DNA from: a virus
Length of the DNA: 30,902 bases
Virus record (IMG/VR): IMGVR_UViG_3300030419_001056
Location: 1 to 30,902 of that record
Reading direction: 5' to 3' (one strand)
Shown here: positions 5,172 to 30,304 of the stretch, piece after piece
Position numbering within the stretch: position 1 is the first letter of the stretch
Layout: every line of letters starts with the position of its first letter
Translations under genes and position numbers: made by a program
The notes under the pieces: generated by a model
Told to the model about the DNA's origin: nothing
Database searches by the model: none
Seen by the model: the letters and a program-made list of their open reading frames with translations, nothing else

Positions 5172-5534
5172 ATGGGAAGAATAACTAACGATTGGGTTTC
5201 TACTATTGAAGGATCTGTTTTTACAACAGCTTCTAGTGACGCTATAAAACCTCCTACAAACCATGTGTTTATCGCTATAACAGCTTTAACAGCAACAGAT
5301 TTCGATGGCACTGGTGGCTTAATTGCAGAAGATGCAACTAAATGGGCTAATACAGCAGATTCTGCTGGTGATTTAGCAGATGGTTCTGAAACTGTAAACG
5401 AAGGATCTGGTGGTATAACAGTAACACAAACTAATTTAGATTTACCAGCTGGTACTACAATTTATGGTAGATATACCGAAATTGATGTTAATGCTGGACA
5501 GATTATAGCTTATTATGCTAGAGACGGAAAATAA
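5172..5534 (+). CDS. small beta-rich protein, probable virion or head-decoration protein
   Basis: This 120-aa protein is rich in Thr, Ala, Asp and Gly, has no cysteine and no membrane segment, and looks like an alternating beta-strand protein (HVFIAITALTATDFDGTGG, then GGITVTQTNLDLPAGTTIYG). I do not recognise a named family. Its place between portal and scaffold, and its possession of the same upstream A/T element as the capsid gene, suggest an abundant structural component such as a head-fibre base, decoration or head-completion protein. Composition is unlike that of the enzymes around it and typical of exposed virion surface proteins. The ATG start is the first in frame and sits after an A-rich leader. 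Confidence 0.7.
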   Translation: MGRITNDWVSTIEGSVFTTASSDAIKPPTNHVFIAITALTATDFDGTGGLIAEDATKWANTADSAGDLADGSETVNEGSGGITVTQTNLDLPAGTTIYGRYTEIDVNAGQIIAYYARDGK

Positions 5535-9236: not shown

Positions 9237-9617
9237 ATGGCAAACGGAAATAGATTTATGGAGCTTGAAGTTCAGAATACATCAAATAAATTCATGATGA
9301 ATCAATCTGGAGCATATAGTGATCCTAACTATATATCTACATCAAACTTTAGTCGAGTTGGAGAAGAAATGATGGCTGGTTATCAACAAGGTTATGAATT
9401 AGGTCATGCAATGTATAACTCTCCTGATCGTGTTCAATTAAGAGCAGATTATGATAAAGCTGTTAAAGAAGGTTTTGAAGGTAGCATGAGGGAATATAGA
9501 AAAGGAAGAAGACAGGCGGGCACTTTACCTAGACAGAAAAGAAGAGCAGCTAATAAAGCAAAAAGGCAAGCTAATAAAGCAAAGAGAAAAGCAAGAAGAG
9601 CAGCTAGAAGAAATTAA
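9237..9617 (+). CDS. small protein with a protamine-like basic tail
   Basis: This 126-aa protein has two parts. Residues 1-85 are neutral and look soluble (FMELEVQNTSNKFMMNQSGA, then MMAGYQQGYELGHAMYNSPD). Residues 86-126 are almost entirely Arg, Lys, Ala, Gln and Asn, with three seven-residue repeats (ANKAKRQ, ANKAKRK, ARRAARR). Such a tail would bind DNA or an acidic partner without sequence specificity. Its place among virion genes suggests a packaged DNA-associated or head-tail joining protein, but no family is recognised. It starts directly after a hairpin and an A-rich leader. An alternative reading is a basic partner of the acidic scaffold. Confidence 0.7.
   Translation: MANGNRFMELEVQNTSNKFMMNQSGAYSDPNYISTSNFSRVGEEMMAGYQQGYELGHAMYNSPDRVQLRADYDKAVKEGFEGSMREYRKGRRQAGTLPRQKRRAANKAKRQANKAKRKARRAARRN
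9549..9611 (+). repeat. three 21-bp tandem repeats encoding the basic tail
   Basis: Units at 9549-9569, 9570-9590 and 9591-9611. The first two share their first 14 bases (GCTAATAAAGCAAA) and encode ANKAKRQ and ANKAKRK; the third is diverged (ARRAARR). They build the polycation heptad by heptad, so length changes in whole units would be tolerated. Confidence 0.8.
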
Positions 9618-21202: not shown

Positions 21203-24200
21203 ATGTACGAATACAACGGAAAAGAGTATTCTTTACAACAAATCGCGCAAGCAGCAATTAAGTCGCGACTTAGTTTAGAGGATTACATCAAAAAACACGG
21301 GATTACAAAAAAAGCAACTACACAACCAGTAGATATTAATACACTGGAAAGTGAAAGTGCACATATTTCTAGAGATGACTTCAATTTCAGAGGTGAAGAT
21401 GCTGAAAGAGTAGTGGTTGAAAGATTACAGAAACGTTATCCTAAGGAAGAGTATGGTATTGAATTTAATGAAAGTGTACCAATGCTTGACTATGTAAGAG
21501 TACGAAATTCAAAAGGTGAATCTGAAAGAATACCATTAAATACTGATTGGAACTTTGGAGAAGGTGGCGAAGGTAGATATGGAGATCCATATACTAGAGT
21601 AATAAACTTCATTGAAAATTCTAAAAAAAATGAAGATCCAATAGAGAAAAAAGTATTTGGAAAACTAGGAACAAATTATGGTGTTCCAGATTTATATCCA
21701 AAATTCCAAACTGATGAAACCGAAGCAATTGTAGGTGCATCTGGAGAAATCTCTCATTATAAAATCCAAGAAAGAACATCTACAGCAGAAGAAGTATATA
21801 ACGCTACAACATATATAGAGGATGAAATAAGAAAATCTAGAAGAACACCTCAAGAATATGGTTTAAATATAGCTAAATCCTCCACAGATAGTCAATACGA
21901 ACTAAACAATTCCCAAAGAAAACAAGAACGCGACGCTGTTTACAGTAACTTTATGAATAATAATCCATGGGGTTATAAAATGGCTAAAGATGAATTTTTA
22001 AAGATTTATGATCAAAGATATGGTGTTATTCAACAAGAAGAGATTCAAAAAGAAGATTTTGAGAATACAATTCTTGAAAAAAATTTAATTACCAATAAAA
22101 AATATATACAAGATTGGGAAAGATCAGCAAATATATCTCTCGCTAGACAATTCGGTGTATCTCAAGAAGTTTTAACTAATATATTAGAGTTAAAAGATAA
22201 TATAAAAGAATCACAAACTAGAATTCAAGATTTAAAAGATAAAAAACTATTACCAGACGCTGATATTGCTGGTATTGAAAATTTAATTACTGCAGAAAAT
22301 AGAAAAATAAATAGCTATGTAGAACAAATTAATGAAAAAGCTTGGAAAACCAAAACTAGATCGGATTTTGTTGAGCCAGGAGTAGCTCCTAAATACGAGA
22401 TTTACCAAGAGTTTAATGAAGATTTAGCTAATGTGTTTATGAATGATGGTTTTTCTGAAAACTCTTCTAATGAAATGCAAGATTCATATAATGTTACAGC
22501 AAACACAATTGCTTTAAATAACATGTTGGAGCAAGTTATGCTCGATAATCCAATGATGACAATGGGTGAAGCTGGAGATAAATTATATGAGGCAAATTGG
22601 AAACACCATGAAGCTCTTTTAAATGAAGGTAATAGAACTGTTACTTTAGATTTTTCTAATTACAATGATAGAAACACTCAAAATCGTGACGGTAGAATAC
22701 TTAATCCTTATAATGATTTATTAACAAAGTTAAATTTTCCTTTAGGCCCCGGTGTTTATGAAGTACCATATAATGATTTGCATAAAGCTGGTATAACTAC
22801 TAGACGTTTTGATTCATGGTGGAAAGATAGGGGTGCTGGTGGTTTTGGTCATGATGTTATAAATGAAGAAGATTTAACTTTTGTTGAACAATTAGACCAA
22901 GCACATAATAGAAATATAGGTGAAAGACATGCTTTATATAATTTATTTAAAGTACAAAGAGATCCTAGCAAAATAGAGAAAAGAGGTGGATTGGGAGCTT
23001 TTGTTAACACAGCAACTAAATCTATTTTAACAGCCTTTGTTGATATACCAGAAGCGGAAGCTGATAGAATTGTAGCTAATTTAGGTGGTAAGAAACAAAC
23101 AACTAGATATCTATTAGATACTATGCAATCTGTTCAACATGATTATAATAATATATTCCAAGAAGAAATTAAAAGTGGTAGTTTACAAGCTTTAGAGTGG
23201 AACGAAGATCAAGTTGAAAACTTTGAAAGAACATGGGGTGAAAACATAGGTGAAGGTGTAGGACATTTTGTACCTGAATTAATAAAATTAGGTATAATTA
23301 GTGCTGCTACTGGAGGAGTAATGACATGGGCTGGTGCTACTAGATATTTAAGATTATTAAAAGAAGGTGGTAAATTTAAATTTATAACTGGCGCAGAAAA
23401 AACATTAAAAGGTGCAGAAGCTTTAACAGGTAAAGCTAAGTTATGGAATAATATTTTATACCATGGTACAAAAGTAATGATAGAAGAAGCTAAAATGTCA
23501 TTAGCTGGATTTAAACCCACGTCTGGTGCTGCGTTTTATACAGGTGGGGTTTTAACTCAAGGTTTAACACCTTTTAAACCTGGTTCAAGATTCTCTTGGT
23601 TAAATCCATTATGGCAAAAAGTTCTAAAGGGTGGTCCTGTTGGTGCAGCATCTATGGAATTTGCTACTATAACAGAAGCAGCTTGGGATGATTTAATGGA
23701 CAACGCTGATTTTAAAACTCATTTCAACGAACTATTTGGAGATTTTGATGAGGTTACAAAAAGATTTATAACTAATTCTATAGTTTTTGGTATTGTTGGA
23801 GCACAACATATAAAGAAAACTGACTTCATGACCAGTGAAGCTAAAAATAGAGCAGGAGCAGCACTACAGTTAAAAGCTCTTCAAATGCTTGGATATGGTA
23901 AAAAAGGAAGAAATAGAAAATTAGAAAATTTATCTGAAAAAGAAAGAGATAAATTTAATTCATATGTAACAGCTTCTCAGAATTTATTTAATATGGCTAG
24001 GGTTGAAAAATTTGGAAAAGATTTAGATCCTAAAAGTAAAAATTTTGAGGTTGAAATGGCAAAAAGATATGAACAACCCGTTAACAATGCTTTAAAAGCT
24101 GTTATCCCAGGATTTAAAGGAATTACTTGGAAATATTATGAAGGTGGAAAGTTTAAACATAAAAAACATTTATTTGAAAATAAAGAACACGCTGCTGAAT

Positions 24201-27200
24201 TCCATCCTGACATGGGAAAAAATGGAGGAATATTAATAGATAAATCTAAATTTACTCCCGGTAAACCAATACATGAGGTAGTTCACGCAGCTTTAGATGG
24301 TTGGATGAAAGCTCAGCCAAGAGGATTTGAAAGAAGATTAAATGCTAACTTAAGTAAAATATTTAAAAAATATGATTTAAAAGCTGAATATGATGGGATT
24401 GAAATAGGTCCTTTAAAAGACTTTATTGACGCTGCTTATGCTGGTAAAACAGGGGAAATGAAAGCTAATGAATTTCTAGCCTATATGGCTGAGTTCTTTA
24501 CAGATGGAAAAATATATGCTTCAAAAGTTACTAGAAATGCTGTAGAAGATATAATGCAAGAATTTAGAGATATATACGAGGAGAATTTCCAAGGAATGCC
24601 ATATAGTAAAATCAAAATAAAGACAGCGGGAGATTTTGTTAGATTTTTAGGTAGATTATCTCAAGGCGCTAGAAGAGGTACTGATATAACAGAAAAGATT
24701 AAAGTATTAGCTCAATTAGATAAAATAGAACTTCAAGGATTAACTAACGCTGAAGGTGGGCGAAGTAAAAAAGGAATGCAACCTTCTAAAGATTTAATAG
24801 CAGAAAGAGATAGATTATTAAAAGAGAATTTAAAATTAGTAAAAGAAAAACCTGAGGGTTGGAGAGAACAAAATAAAATAATAGCTGCTCAAATTAGAGG
24901 TATTGATAGTTCGATACTTATGTCAGAAACTAATGAGAAAGAGATTTTAAAATATAAAGAATTAGTTGATAAAGGTATAGATCCTTCAGTTCATTTCTCT
25001 AGATTAAGAGAAAATAACATGGGTATACTTAATGAGTTTGTTAAAGAAGCATATAAGGATGTTCCTGGTTCAGATGTTACTTTTAAAATGTTTGAAGGGT
25101 ATACTAAAAATAATGAACTTAATAAAATAATAAATAGTTATTTAAAGAAAGGTAAGGTTGATGCTGATGGTAATGTAGGATTATCACCAATGGAAAGAGG
25201 TGTGCCATTTGGAGCTTATTTAAGAAATACTTTATTTGGACCTAACTACGTAACGGGTAGTGGTAGACCACAAAGACAAGGTAATATTTTAAGAGCATTA
25301 CAAGGTGGTAGAACACAAGATCAAACAATTAAAACAGTTAGTATAGAAGCTGAGGGTGTAAGAAGTGAAGCTATGCAACTAGTAGATGGAACACCTATGG
25401 TTTTAGATGGTGGAACAACAAGAGGTGGTAGTAATGGACCTAAACAGGTGGAAGCTGGTTTGATACTTTTAAAAGAAAAACTAGGATTATCACCTAAGCA
25501 TATTAAAGCTATTGAAGCTAAAATTGAAGCAAGTAAGTTATCAGAAGCAAATTATAGAGATTTAATAGACTTAACACCTGATCTTACCCTTGAAATATTT
25601 GGTGGTATAAAAGAATATGTTACAAAAAAAGGTGTAACAAAGCCGGTTGTATTTGGTAAGTCAGCTAAAAATGTAGAACAAAAAGCAGAATATATTGCTG
25701 AAAAATGGGAAACATTGTATGATTTATTACCACATGGAGCTATGCTTAAAACAGGTAGAAATCAAATAGAAGGATTATCTACTGAAATTAGAGACCCACT
25801 ATTAAATGGTTTGTTATATACACCTATAACAAGAAAAGGTAAAGATGCTCAAGCATCTGCTGCTAAAACAGGTAAAACATCCGGATTACCCGTACAAAAT
25901 AAAATTAAAAACTTAACTAAAGAACAGTTTTTAGAAAAATTTGGAATATTTTTAAATGCTGAAGGTAAAGTTGATTTTAATAAAACAAATATAAAATCAC
26001 AAAGTAAAAATCTTAGAGCTATAGATGCTTTAATAACAGAAACAGGTAGAGCAATTACTAATCAAACTGTTAGACTTTGGTTGACTAAAAAAAATGAAAA
26101 AGGAGAATTAATAAATAAAGAATTATATGATAAACTTAATGGCGATGCTTTATTAGATCAAATAGCTGGTGGTAAATCTGCTTCATTAGCTTCAAGAGAT
26201 TTATTATTAGAATTACAGAAAAAAGGTATTGGTACAAATGATAGAAGTAGAATACAATTAATACAAAGATATATATCTAATCCTAAGCTATTTGCAGAAA
26301 ATAATTCTAAGGCGTTTAAAATTATTAAAGATGAAATTCACAATATATTAGCTCTTAAAGCAGAACAAGGGGTCTCTAATAAAGGATATACTGAAAAAAT
26401 AAAAGCACATCCAGAATATGGAGAAATTTATAAAAATGGATACGCTAGTCTTTCTTCTAAAAAGTTTAAAGAAAACGAAGTTGCAGTTGAACAATTTATA
26501 AAACATGCTGTAGAAATGTTTACTATAATACCAGATGTTAGTTTAATTAAACAATCTGGTAACTTAAAAATGTTATTTGATTTAGCAGCAGGACATTATT
26601 CAGTTGTTGGATCAACTTTAGCTAAAACAAAAAAGGGACAAGAAGGAGCTTTTAGAAAAGCTATTATGGATGCTTTAGCAACAAAATTTGATAAAGTTAA
26701 AAATAAAGAACATAAAAATATTTTAAAAGAAGAATTACCAAAAGAATTAGTTAAACGTTGGAGAAAAATTGATTGGGATTTTTTAAGTAAAAGTAGTGCT
26801 TATAGTTCTGAAACTTGGGGTAACGTTCATAAGGTTTGGCAAGCTGGTATAGAAGGTGGTGGTCAGAAAATAGCAAGAGAAATTTTTACAAAAAAAGAAA
26901 GTAAAATATTATTAGAGTTATTTGACTTGTGGAATTCTACTTTACAACATTGGATACAAAATGTACCAAAGCAAAAAAGTGAAGCTAAGTATAAAGAAAT
27001 AAGAGATGGAAGGTTGAGCTATATGTTCAAGCTTAATAAAGCTAATGGAGAAATTGGTACAACTGGAGCAAGAGTATTAGCACCTAATGGTTATATGATG
27101 ATACTTCCTAAAAACTTTTTTGACACAAAAGTATTTAAGGAAAAAGTAGATCAAATGATAGAAGATGGTGGATACGTTGGTGTGAAAGGTAATTTTATAA

Positions 27201-30200
27201 GTTTGAAGAGAAAAACACCTGAGTCGAGAAAAGCAGAAGCTCAAAAGAAAGTATTTGAGCAAATGAGAAAATTTGAACACCTTAAAAGTAGTAGTGACAT
27301 GAGTTTTGATTCTGCTATATTAATAGCTGATGGTTTATGGACTACAAAAGGTCAACAAGCATTAAGAAAATATAGAGGAATATATGGTCTATTATCAGAA
27401 TTTAACATGATTGATACCTCTATTATTGATGGTAAAAAAGTAGATGCCAAAGTAAGTAACGCTGATATATTTAGATTTGGAAAAAATTTAGAATTAGCTA
27501 AACATATATATAGTGCAAAAAGTGGATTTAGAAAAAGTCTTTATCAAGAGATGATAGAAGGTGCTGGTAAAAAAGAAGTTCTTAGATTAGAAAAAGCTCT
27601 AGAAGCATATAAATTAGATAGGGCATTGGAGATTGCAAAAGATCCTAATAAAAAAAGAAAAGGTATAAGTATATTTGATTTTGATCAAACGCTAGCTAAT
27701 ACAAAAGAAAAAGTAAAAGTTATACCACTTGAAGGTAAACCATTTAGAATAAATGCAGCTGAATTTGCTAAAAGAGCAGAAGCATTAGAAGCTAAAGGAG
27801 CTAAGTTTGATTTCTCAGAATTTGAAAAAGTTATTGGTGCTAAAAAAGGTCCATTATTTGATTTAGCAATGAAACGTCAAGGTAAGTTTGGTAGTGGAGA
27901 TATATTTGTATTAACTGCTAGACCACAAAGTTCTGCTTTAGCAATACATAATTTCTTAAAAGGTATTGGTTTAAATATACCAGTAGAAAATATAACAGGG
28001 TTAGAAAGTGGAGCTCCAAGAGCTAAAGCTGATTTTGTTTTAGATAAAGTTATTGAAAAGTATAATGATTTCTACTTTGCTGATGATGCAATTAAAAATG
28101 TTAAAGCTGTAAAAAGAATATTAGATGTTGTTGATGTTAAATCAGACGTACAACAAGCATTTGCAGCAAAAGATATGAATGTTGTGTTTAATGAAATATT
28201 AGAAGGTAAGTTTAATATAGGTAAACATAAAATATATTCAAAAGCAAAAGCAAGGGTTGTTGGTAAAGGAAAAGGTAGATTTAAAGTTTGGATACCTTAT
28301 TCAGCTGAAGATTTTACAGGTTTATTATATCCTATATTAAGAAAAGGAAAAAATGGAGATGCTGATTTTGCATTTTTAAAACACAATCTAATAGATCCAT
28401 TTGCTAGAGGTGAAAGAAATATGACTCAAGAAAAATTTGCTATTCAAAGAGATCATAGAGAATTAAAGAAAAGAATACCATCTGTAGCTGGTAAAGGTGG
28501 ATTACTAAAGAAGAAAATTGTTGATTCAGATGGTAAAAAAGAAGCATATACATATGAAGAAGCTGCTAGAGTTTATGTTTGGGATAAAATGGGTTATAAA
28601 ATACCTGATTTAACGAAAACAGATTTAAATATGTTAAAAAGAACTGTTAAATCAAATTCTGACTTAAGAGATTTTGCAGATGGATTAATAACTATACATA
28701 AAGCTGATGGTTATGTACAACCATCAAAATCTTGGTTAGCTGGTACAATAACAACAGATATAATGGATGGTTTAAATAAAAACAAAAGAGCTAAACATTT
28801 AAAAGAATTCAATAACAATGTAGATATTATATTTTCAGAAGCTAATATGAATAAATTAGAAGCTGCTTTAGGTAAGAACTGGAGAGAAGCAATGGAAAAT
28901 ATATTAGAAAGAATGAAAAGCGGACAAAATAGAAAAGTATTTAACAATACTTATATGCAGAAGATGGAAAATCAATTATTAGATTGGGCTAATAATTCAG
29001 TTGGTACTATAATGTTCTTAAATAGTAAATCAGCCTTATTACAGACTTTATCAATGGTTAACTATATAAACATGACTGATAATAATCCAATGAAAGCAGC
29101 AATGGCCTTTGGTAATCAAAAACAATTTTGGAAAGATTTTATATCTATATACAACTCAAGTTATTTGGTACAACGTAGAGAAGGTGTTAAACTAAACATA
29201 AATGAAGCTGAAATTGTTGAAGCTGCATCTAGAGAAAAAGGAATAAATGGAGTTATTTCATATATGCTTAAACAAGGTTTTCTTTTAACTAGACATGCTG
29301 ATAGTTTTGCAATAGCTATGGGTGGAGCTAGTTTCTTTAGAAATAGATATAACACATATGTAAATCAAGGTTTAAGTAAAAAAGCAGCTAAGAAAAAAGC
29401 ATTTTTAGAATTTAGAGAAATATCAGAAGAAACTCAGCAATCAAGTAGAGCTGATAAAATAAGTGCTCAACAAGCTTCTGGTTTAGGTAGAGTTATTTTA
29501 GCTTTTGCAAATACACCTATGCAGTATGCTAGATTACAAAAAAGAGCTATACAAGATTTAGTAGCTGGTAGAGGTGACGCTAGAACAAATACTTCTAAAG
29601 CAATGTATTATGGATTTATTGCTAACTTAATATTTAACACTATACAACAAGCTGCTTGGGCAATAAAATTTGATGAAAACGAAGATGATGAAAAACAAAT
29701 TTTTGATAAATCTGCAGATATATTAAACGGTACTCTTGACTCAAGTCTTAGAGGTTTTGGTTATCAAGGCGCTGCGTTAGCTGCTGGTAAAAATGTTTTA
29801 TATAAAATGTGGAAAGAAAGTAGAGAAGATAGACCTAAATATGAGGACGCAGCATGGGAGTTTTTAAAATTCTCTCCACCAATATCATCAAAAATACTAA
29901 AAGTAAGATCTGCTTTAAGAGCTCTTGATTACGATTTAGATGAAATGAAAGAAGGAGGTTTTGGTTTAGAAAATCCAGCTTGGATGGCAGGTGCTCAATT
30001 ATTATCAGGTGTAACCAATGCTCCTTTTGATAGAATATTAATGAAAATGGATAACATACAAAATGCTTTTGCTGAAGACACAGAGATGTGGGCTAGACCA
30101 GCTTTATTAGCCGGTTATAATGATTGGACATTAGGTATAGACGAAAGATCAAAAGAAAGATTCAGAAAAGCAAAAAAAGAAAAAGAGTTAGAAACTAGAA

Positions 30201-30304
30201 GAAGATTTAATATGAATAAAGATCCAAATATTATAGATTGGGAAAATATTGATTATGATTTTGAAGATATTGATTATGATGAACTTTTTGAACAATATGA
30301 TTAA
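21203..30304 (+). CDS. giant polyvalent internal virion protein with metallopeptidase and HAD domains
   Basis: This 3033-aa protein is the longest gene here. Residues 1-33 (EYNGKEYSLQQIAQAAIKSR and on) look like a short start motif seen on other phage virion giants. Residues 170-640 are mostly helical. A glycine-rich hydrophobic segment lies at 697-712. A zinc-peptidase motif HEVVH occurs at 1024-1028, with a candidate third ligand E1090 in NEFLAYMAEFF. Residues 1250-2150 are of unknown fold. A full HAD-type domain spans about 2155-2310: DFDQT with D2159 and D2161, LTARP at 2237-2241, and FADD with D2294/D2295. The last 700 residues include membrane-like helices near 2600 and 2801-2821, and an acidic repeated tail. 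This fits an ejected protein at the place of T7 gp16, enzymatically active at entry. No lysozyme or RNA polymerase motif was found. Confidence 0.75.
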   Translation: MYEYNGKEYSLQQIAQAAIKSRLSLEDYIKKHGITKKATTQPVDINTLESESAHISRDDFNFRGEDAERVVVERLQKRYPKEEYGIEFNESVPMLDYVRVRNSKGESERIPLNTDWNFGEGGEGRYGDPYTRVINFIENSKKNEDPIEKKVFGKLGTNYGVPDLYPKFQTDETEAIVGASGEISHYKIQERTSTAEEVYNATTYIEDEIRKSRRTPQEYGLNIAKSSTDSQYELNNSQRKQERDAVYSNFMNNNPWGYKMAKDEFLKIYDQRYGVIQQEEIQKEDFENTILEKNLITNKKYIQDWERSANISLARQFGVSQEVLTNILELKDNIKESQTRIQDLKDKKLLPDADIAGIENLITAENRKINSYVEQINEKAWKTKTRSDFVEPGVAPKYEIYQEFNEDLANVFMNDGFSENSSNEMQDSYNVTANTIALNNMLEQVMLDNPMMTMGEAGDKLYEANWKHHEALLNEGNRTVTLDFSNYNDRNTQNRDGRILNPYNDLLTKLNFPLGPGVYEVPYNDLHKAGITTRRFDSWWKDRGAGGFGHDVINEEDLTFVEQLDQAHNRNIGERHALYNLFKVQRDPSKIEKRGGLGAFVNTATKSILTAFVDIPEAEADRIVANLGGKKQTTRYLLDTMQSVQHDYNNIFQEEIKSGSLQALEWNEDQVENFERTWGENIGEGVGHFVPELIKLGIISAATGGVMTWAGATRYLRLLKEGGKFKFITGAEKTLKGAEALTGKAKLWNNILYHGTKVMIEEAKMSLAGFKPTSGAAFYTGGVLTQGLTPFKPGSRFSWLNPLWQKVLKGGPVGAASMEFATITEAAWDDLMDNADFKTHFNELFGDFDEVTKRFITNSIVFGIVGAQHIKKTDFMTSEAKNRAGAALQLKALQMLGYGKKGRNRKLENLSEKERDKFNSYVTASQNLFNMARVEKFGKDLDPKSKNFEVEMAKRYEQPVNNALKAVIPGFKGITWKYYEGGKFKHKKHLFENKEHAAEFHPDMGKNGGILIDKSKFTPGKPIHEVVHAALDGWMKAQPRGFERRLNANLSKIFKKYDLKAEYDGIEIGPLKDFIDAAYAGKTGEMKANEFLAYMAEFFTDGKIYASKVTRNAVEDIMQEFRDIYEENFQGMPYSKIKIKTAGDFVRFLGRLSQGARRGTDITEKIKVLAQLDKIELQGLTNAEGGRSKKGMQPSKDLIAERDRLLKENLKLVKEKPEGWREQNKIIAAQIRGIDSSILMSETNEKEILKYKELVDKGIDPSVHFSRLRENNMGILNEFVKEAYKDVPGSDVTFKMFEGYTKNNELNKIINSYLKKGKVDADGNVGLSPMERGVPFGAYLRNTLFGPNYVTGSGRPQRQGNILRALQGGRTQDQTIKTVSIEAEGVRSEAMQLVDGTPMVLDGGTTRGGSNGPKQVEAGLILLKEKLGLSPKHIKAIEAKIEASKLSEANYRDLIDLTPDLTLEIFGGIKEYVTKKGVTKPVVFGKSAKNVEQKAEYIAEKWETLYDLLPHGAMLKTGRNQIEGLSTEIRDPLLNGLLYTPITRKGKDAQASAAKTGKTSGLPVQNKIKNLTKEQFLEKFGIFLNAEGKVDFNKTNIKSQSKNLRAIDALITETGRAITNQTVRLWLTKKNEKGELINKELYDKLNGDALLDQIAGGKSASLASRDLLLELQKKGIGTNDRSRIQLIQRYISNPKLFAENNSKAFKIIKDEIHNILALKAEQGVSNKGYTEKIKAHPEYGEIYKNGYASLSSKKFKENEVAVEQFIKHAVEMFTIIPDVSLIKQSGNLKMLFDLAAGHYSVVGSTLAKTKKGQEGAFRKAIMDALATKFDKVKNKEHKNILKEELPKELVKRWRKIDWDFLSKSSAYSSETWGNVHKVWQAGIEGGGQKIAREIFTKKESKILLELFDLWNSTLQHWIQNVPKQKSEAKYKEIRDGRLSYMFKLNKANGEIGTTGARVLAPNGYMMILPKNFFDTKVFKEKVDQMIEDGGYVGVKGNFISLKRKTPESRKAEAQKKVFEQMRKFEHLKSSSDMSFDSAILIADGLWTTKGQQALRKYRGIYGLLSEFNMIDTSIIDGKKVDAKVSNADIFRFGKNLELAKHIYSAKSGFRKSLYQEMIEGAGKKEVLRLEKALEAYKLDRALEIAKDPNKKRKGISIFDFDQTLANTKEKVKVIPLEGKPFRINAAEFAKRAEALEAKGAKFDFSEFEKVIGAKKGPLFDLAMKRQGKFGSGDIFVLTARPQSSALAIHNFLKGIGLNIPVENITGLESGAPRAKADFVLDKVIEKYNDFYFADDAIKNVKAVKRILDVVDVKSDVQQAFAAKDMNVVFNEILEGKFNIGKHKIYSKAKARVVGKGKGRFKVWIPYSAEDFTGLLYPILRKGKNGDADFAFLKHNLIDPFARGERNMTQEKFAIQRDHRELKKRIPSVAGKGGLLKKKIVDSDGKKEAYTYEEAARVYVWDKMGYKIPDLTKTDLNMLKRTVKSNSDLRDFADGLITIHKADGYVQPSKSWLAGTITTDIMDGLNKNKRAKHLKEFNNNVDIIFSEANMNKLEAALGKNWREAMENILERMKSGQNRKVFNNTYMQKMENQLLDWANNSVGTIMFLNSKSALLQTLSMVNYINMTDNNPMKAAMAFGNQKQFWKDFISIYNSSYLVQRREGVKLNINEAEIVEAASREKGINGVISYMLKQGFLLTRHADSFAIAMGGASFFRNRYNTYVNQGLSKKAAKKKAFLEFREISEETQQSSRADKISAQQASGLGRVILAFANTPMQYARLQKRAIQDLVAGRGDARTNTSKAMYYGFIANLIFNTIQQAAWAIKFDENEDDEKQIFDKSADILNGTLDSSLRGFGYQGAALAAGKNVLYKMWKESREDRPKYEDAAWEFLKFSPPISSKILKVRSALRALDYDLDEMKEGGFGLENPAWMAGAQLLSGVTNAPFDRILMKMDNIQNAFAEDTEMWARPALLAGYNDWTLGIDERSKERFRKAKKEKELETRRRFNMNKDPNIIDWENIDYDFEDIDYDELFEQYD
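30242..30283 (+). repeat. 21-bp imperfect tandem repeat at the acidic C-terminus of the giant protein
   Basis: Units 30242-30262 and 30263-30283 encode ENIDYDF and EDIDYDE. The last twenty-odd residues hold about a dozen acidic and several aromatic residues and no basic one, in contrast to the Lys/Arg-rich segment just before, and could be a docking or packaging tag. Confidence 0.75.

Follow-up and report, generated by a model that had tools for sequence, protein, structure and literature searches.

Which target would be served by a phosphatase-like domain that is encoded, together with a metallopeptidase-like motif, in a 3033-residue protein at the end of a phage virion module? The window, by which we mean the whole 30,902-base virus record analysed here, covers part of the genome of an uncultivated marine podovirus, a relative of the Pervagoviridae. 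Its terminase and portal match those of Flavobacterium elemo phages, Cellulophaga phi38:1-like phages (Pervagoviridae), Maribacter phage Panino and MW202828, an uncultured 60-kb podovirus.

The giant gene and its relatives

Upstream of the giant frame lie a GroES-like fragment and terminase, portal, capsid, tail and internal-protein genes. As the preliminary description had it, the giant gene is real and runs from its ATG to its stop in a single open frame (Table 1). The same description attributed several membrane-like helices to the product. This claim is weak: by Kyte-Doolittle hydropathy, the two highest-scoring 19-residue windows have means of 1.37 and 1.15, short of the usual membrane-helix threshold of about 1.6, which speaks against strong membrane helices.

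The smaller of the two genes immediately upstream (217 aa) was found 5' of the giant in 66 of the 91 loci with room for it. The other (695 aa) gave no tblastn match in any of the 138 relative loci; its divergence is as rapid as that of the N-terminus of the giant, although neighbouring genes have relatives. Its positional counterpart, phi38:1 gp100, is annotated as structural. Two small virion-module genes elsewhere in the window (5172-5534 and 9237-9614) have no PHROG match, and the product of the latter has a very basic C-terminus.

Table 1. Positions in the window of the giant gene, its parts and its two upstream neighbours
Feature	Coordinates	Strand	Basis
Small internal-protein gene, 217 aa	18418..19071	+	phi38:1 gp99 homologue, 25.7% identity, E 9e-6
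Hypervariable gene, 695 aa	19102..21189	+	between the 217-aa gene and the giant; position of phi38:1 gp100
Giant virion-module protein, 3033 aa	21203..30304	+	ATG to stop; last complete gene, following those for portal, capsid, tail and internal proteins; same place in phi38:1 and Elemovirus
Variable N-terminal module, residues 1-2110	21203..27532	+	tblastn matches in only 4-15/138 loci per segment; similarity stops just 5' of the HAD in several relatives
Zincin-like metallopeptidase core, residues 1009-1108	24227..24526	+	AlphaFold2 core pLDDT mostly ~80-90; structural matches to several zincin families
HEVVH, residues 1024-1028, putative zinc ligands and catalytic Glu	24272..24286	+	position near-invariant in relatives
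E1090, putative third zinc ligand	24470..24472	+	invariant in 79/79 aligned zincin regions
HAD phosphatase domain, PNKP-like, residues 2155-2320	27665..28162	+	fold best matches T4 Pnkp 3'-phosphatase; phrog_415 in 17/19 members
HAD motif I DFDQT (D2159, D2161, T2163)	27677..27691	+	D, D, T invariant 81/81
HAD motif II T-A-R (T2238, R2240)	27914..27922	+	invariant 81/81; R2240 aligns with T4 Pnkp R213
HAD motif III region, K2275 and K2282	28025..28048	+	both Lys invariant 81/81
HAD motif IV D2294-D2295	28082..28087	+	invariant 81/81
All-helical constant C-terminal chassis, residues 2330-2990	28190..30172	+	40-48% median identity in 133-136/138 loci; helical model

The window giant protein found no match in Pfam, among PDB sequences or by plain tblastn, and its HAD part matched none of the INPHARED phage records. 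A scan of IMG/VR with the HAD region yielded at least 567 relatives, the best 80 of which were analysed; those with a complete frame were nearly all giants of about 2,000-3,350 aa with the HAD some 900 aa from the C-terminus. When another segment, from the C-terminal part, was used for a second scan, 59 loci were returned; 58 of them were new, and the HAD was found in 46-48 of these 58. Altogether, 138 IMG/VR loci were examined and the architecture is retained among them. A terminase was present in all 29 long related contigs tested, most matches being 71-81% identical to that of the window; the terminase frame is broken or partial in four related contigs, and one of these four (G006) stands at only 46% identity. 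The relatives with the giant protein are one coherent phage group. Some contigs carrying it (L148-L158) are found in MAGs that bear the labels Woesearchaeota, Aliivibrio, Maricaulis, Ilumatobacteraceae and others. As most of the matches in archaeal or bacterial MAGs encode the same giant protein, they are most likely mis-binned phage contigs; alternatively, the binning may hint at hosts.

The giant gene occupies the place of phi38:1 gp101 and elemo gp18, each the last gene of its virion module and annotated as a structural protein. From this gene order and these annotations, we infer that the protein would be present in the virion and injected at entry. No proteomic data on the giant or its HAD relatives were found. 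An HExxH motif is present in elemo gp18 and in the MW202828 giant. However, a DxDxT like that of the present HAD is absent from gp101 and gp18, whose sequences show no detectable similarity to the window protein, and a profile of the HAD plus C-terminus gave no match in the giants at the syntenic position in phi38:1, elemo, MW202828 and Panino. The order of the last three genes also fits the T7-like internal core (gp14/gp15/gp16); homology was shown only to phi38:1 gp99. Giant ejected proteins of the Schitoviridae, such as the virion RNA polymerase of N4, resemble the window protein in size (about 3,000-3,500 aa), in their place in the virion module and in having an MPTase domain. They differ in that no polymerase was found in the window giant and in phage lineage; moreover, N4-type giants are delivered with the DNA, whereas delivery of the window giant is presumed.

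Two enzyme-like domains in one frame

The HEVVH motif and E1090 lie where the preliminary description placed them. HExxH appears in 3.2% of shuffled versions of the window giant protein. Despite this rate, the zincin motif is not due to chance, since HExxH or HExxxH was found in 53 of the 58 relatives that had been selected through a different part of the protein, and E1090 was conserved without exception. In an alignment of 79 diverged zincin regions (about 16% identity), the only invariant columns were H1024, E1025, H1028 and E1090; the first three had served as selection criteria and E1090 had not. These same four residues were the sole near-invariant positions, besides the start Met, when 24 whole N-terminal modules were aligned whose boundaries had been set independently of the motif. 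Identity to the window around HEVVH was only 11-33%, and an IMG/VR scan with the zincin region alone retrieved no relatives, because this region diverges too fast.

Structure prediction around HEVVH gave a zincin core. The AlphaFold2 model (mean pLDDT 69 overall) contains, in order, a helix (model residues 60-79), three strands (89-91, 110-113 and 121-125), the HExxH helix (133-149) and a helix bearing the downstream Glu (196-211), which is the core arrangement given for the MPTases of polyvalent proteins in PMC5512222. Its VIA-align neighbours are lethal-factor-fold, ACE, MATCAP, IrrE and M1-aminopeptidase zincins, with a best Z of only 6.8. Foldseek alone returned no significant match for either this model or that of the HAD, so the fold assignments of both domains rest on VIA-align plus motifs. 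Judged by predicted fold and invariant active site, the zincin domain is real. At the aligned site, a minority of relatives carry HExxxH (L004, L007, L008 and L096), QExxH (L030, L031 and L068) or EExxH (L070, L071 and L076); activity may be lost or altered in these, given the extra residue or the replaced first His.

The acidic residues and the threonine of the HAD domain were likewise all located at the positions claimed (D2159, D2161, T2238, D2294 and D2295). Ten residues are invariant in 81 of 81 sequences: D2159, D2161, T2163, T2238, A2239, R2240, K2275, K2282, D2294 and D2295. The domain thus has the DxDxT, the motif II T/S, the motif III K and the motif IV DD of the superfamily. A model of the HAD plus C-terminus (mean pLDDT 81; HAD about 75-90) shows a Rossmannoid HAD fold around DFDQT with a beta-hairpin flap and a small cap; about 600 helical residues come after it. 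Only HADs occupy the top VIA-align rows for the HAD model, with Z >= 8 in 43 chains. In close pairs dN is far below dS (e.g., 0.005 vs 0.395), with dN/dS of about 0.01-0.07. By the same measures of predicted fold and active site, this domain too is real. A second subfamily has DFDET and retains every catalytic residue. The idea that relatives without DFDDT carry degenerate HADs was rejected: these copies belonged to the intact DFDET subfamily or carried the kinase insert described below.

A conserved C-terminal end and changing N-terminal modules

The two ends of the giant protein behave differently among the 138 loci. By tblastn, the HAD was found in 131 loci and the C-terminus in 133-136, whereas N-terminal segments were matched in only 4-15. 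In several pairs of relatives, identity is 82-92% over the stretch that starts shortly before the HAD and runs to the C-terminus, and little is in common ahead of it; in the pair L054/L079, identity is 92% from residue 2056 on, and residues 156-2055 are not alignable. The N-terminal 1,800-2,300 aa, zincin included, have been exchanged or have diverged past recognition, while TerL is still 71-81% identical. A Pfam scan of the N-terminal modules of 24 relatives revealed no further known domain. Both the segment match counts and the pairs identical only from just upstream of the HAD argue that the HAD and the helical C-terminus form a fixed unit joined to changing N-terminal modules, nearly always with a zincin. 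A fixed phosphatase end with the other two thirds exchanged suggests a delivery system with interchangeable payloads, in which we infer the C-terminus to be the part serving packaging or ejection.

The polyvalent-protein comparison made in the preliminary description fits this protein, in which a zincin and an unrelated enzyme, both with intact active sites, share one frame directly downstream of portal, capsid and tail genes. Zincin-bearing phage polyvalent proteins have already been described (Iyer et al. 2017, PMC5512222); they too are very large and multidomain, lie beside virion genes and combine an HExxH with downstream Glu and an unrelated enzyme. They differ from the giant described here in that the terms haloacid and phosphatase do not occur in the main text of the paper; nor were the constant chassis of HAD plus helical C-terminus and the nested kinase found in the part of it available.

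Substrate of the HAD and proposed role at entry

The best VIA-align match of the HAD is the T4 Pnkp 3'-phosphatase (Z 11.5, 2.4 A over 120 residues). All of the top four rows are polynucleotide 3'-phosphatases, namely T4 Pnkp (PseT) and bacterial Pnkp1 of the Pnkp/Rnl/Hen1 complex (Z 11.5-10.4; 10.9 for Pnkp1), which have the DxDxT, the motif II Arg and the motif IV DD in common with the giant's HAD. The profile phrog_415 ("polynucleotide kinase") matches 17 of 19 of these HADs (best 2e-9) and the T4 PseT phosphatase domain (3e-24); it also finds matches in ordinary bacterial genomes. Three standalone phage-type HADs of phrog_415 (L160, L161 and L163; 168-184 aa) belong to the same subfamily and have common motifs including the cap segment, but they are free small proteins, unfused to a virion protein. 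Differences from T4 Pnkp are that its R176 and D254 have no clear counterpart in the alignment, that hhalign of the two covers only 32 residues, and that Pfam HAD_PNKP (PF25109), which matches T4 PseT at 2.8e-59, is silent on 19 HAD members at E up to 1. Since, in addition, the window giant lacks the kinase partner domain, and considering the bacterial matches of phrog_415, we describe its HAD as probably "working like" a PNKP phosphatase, without counting it as belonging to that family.

The kinase appears in relatives. A search of related contigs with Pfam AAA_33, a family that includes the T4 Pnk kinase domain, gave two matches, both within the giant frame. Ten relatives (L094, L104, L116, L131, L135, L141, L142, L145, L154 and L156) carry at the same site, between HAD motif I and the cap, a P-loop kinase of about 200 aa with GGxGxGK or a near variant. 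It is thus nested inside the HAD, in contrast to the N-terminal kinase of T4 Pnkp, and the whole is part of a giant virion-module protein. The T4 Pnk family profile phrog_505 matches the insert at up to 3e-12. As the ten bearers need at least two changes on the HAD tree, there has been more than one gain or loss of the insert; most relatives, including the window, have the HAD without it. Among other profiles with matches to the nested kinase (L116 8042-9100, L135 8039-9100) are phrog_16619 ("minor head protein", 1440 positions) and phrog_12810, so other phage head proteins may have a related kinase domain. Jumbo phages are known to encode PNK-HAD repair enzymes as separate proteins; no fusion to a polyvalent protein was found in the available part of that report (PMC7824862), and other literature may describe one.

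The interleaving of a kinase with a PNKP-like phosphatase is the strongest hint of a polynucleotide-end substrate, and as leading hypothesis the HAD target is narrowed to polynucleotide 3' ends. The chief alternative, which we consider unlikely, is that the giant is still an injected polyvalent protein whose HAD acts on a small molecule or lipid, such as a nucleotide signal, a sugar phosphate or phosphatidic acid. HADs are evolutionarily promiscuous, and the best Pfam matches here are DUF2608 and generic HAD; Nir2, a lipid-binding HAD, follows directly after the top four rows (Z 10.0), and Nir2/lipin-type and phosphoserine-phosphatase-type folds lie at Z 8.7-10. These points are countered by the exclusive presence of polynucleotide 3'-phosphatases in the top four rows and by the fusion of a PNK-like kinase into the HAD of relatives. 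The small-molecule reading also gains from the lack of a ligase partner in related contigs: RtcB was absent from 29 of them, and RNA_ligase gave nothing above cut-off in 35; the search with T4 Rnl1 carries no weight here, as its control matched nowhere. An RNA-repair reading would therefore lack a phage ligase, which makes a host ligase, or repair of DNA nicks, the more natural completion.

It is improbable that the giant is mainly structural, an ejection-channel protein like T7 gp16 with the zincin only processing the giant in the capsid and the HAD playing a minor part. Its place as third gene after two smaller internal-protein genes, its conserved helical C-terminus and the self-processing proposed for MPTases in PMC5512222 would all suit such a role, but a purely structural HAD is not expected to keep all catalytic residues in 81 of 81 sequences with very low dN. 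Least probable of all is an anti-host pair in which a zeta-toxin-like kinase acts on a cell-wall precursor or other metabolite with the HAD as partner or brake: Zeta_toxin does match all nine aligned nested kinases (best 2.9e-13), and PMC5512222 describes zeta-like kinases in polyvalent proteins and MuF fusions, but AAA_33 matches the same nine better in the same scan (best 7e-17) and the HAD occurs without this kinase in most relatives.

The end-healing reading can be put as follows. The giant is probably a phage polyvalent protein, and its HAD a nucleic-acid end-healing enzyme delivered at entry. The capsid would hold the giant together with its two upstream neighbours, and the giant would be ejected with the DNA. 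In the first minutes of infection, broken DNA or RNA would have its 3'-phosphates or 2',3'-cyclic phosphates removed by the PNKP-like HAD; in the ten relatives, phosphate would be added to the 5'-OH side by the nested kinase, leaving a break that a host or phage ligase could seal. Less certainly, the zincin might cleave the giant itself to free its domains after delivery, or cut a variable host target. For the cleavage of a host protein favoured in the preliminary description, self-processing is a rival of equal or better precedent, having been proposed for the MPTases of polyvalent proteins in PMC5512222. We give even chances to this scheme as a whole, that is, a polyvalent-type giant packaged and delivered by the virion, with a HAD healing 3'-phosphate ends and a zincin processing the giant or cutting a host target. 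More tentatively, and with the balance against it, we propose that a family of marine phages carries an end-healing 3'-phosphatase, with a nested 5'-kinase in some, in the virion and injects it with the genome, such that breaks due to host defences or arising on entry would be healed before phage gene expression, exchangeable N-terminal protease modules being borne on a constant C-terminal chassis.

Neither the nested kinase-in-phosphatase layout nor a constant C-terminus with exchangeable N-terminal modules was found in the literature searched. The giant-protein family is large in marine viromes, a single IMG/VR scan having yielded its many HAD relatives. If the chassis and its exchangeable modules are as proposed, nature would here offer an instance of a virion delivery chassis whose cargo can be interchanged. 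T4 PseT and other known phage end-healing enzymes are produced once infection is under way; a packaged enzyme, if real, would act at time zero, as host nucleases first strike.
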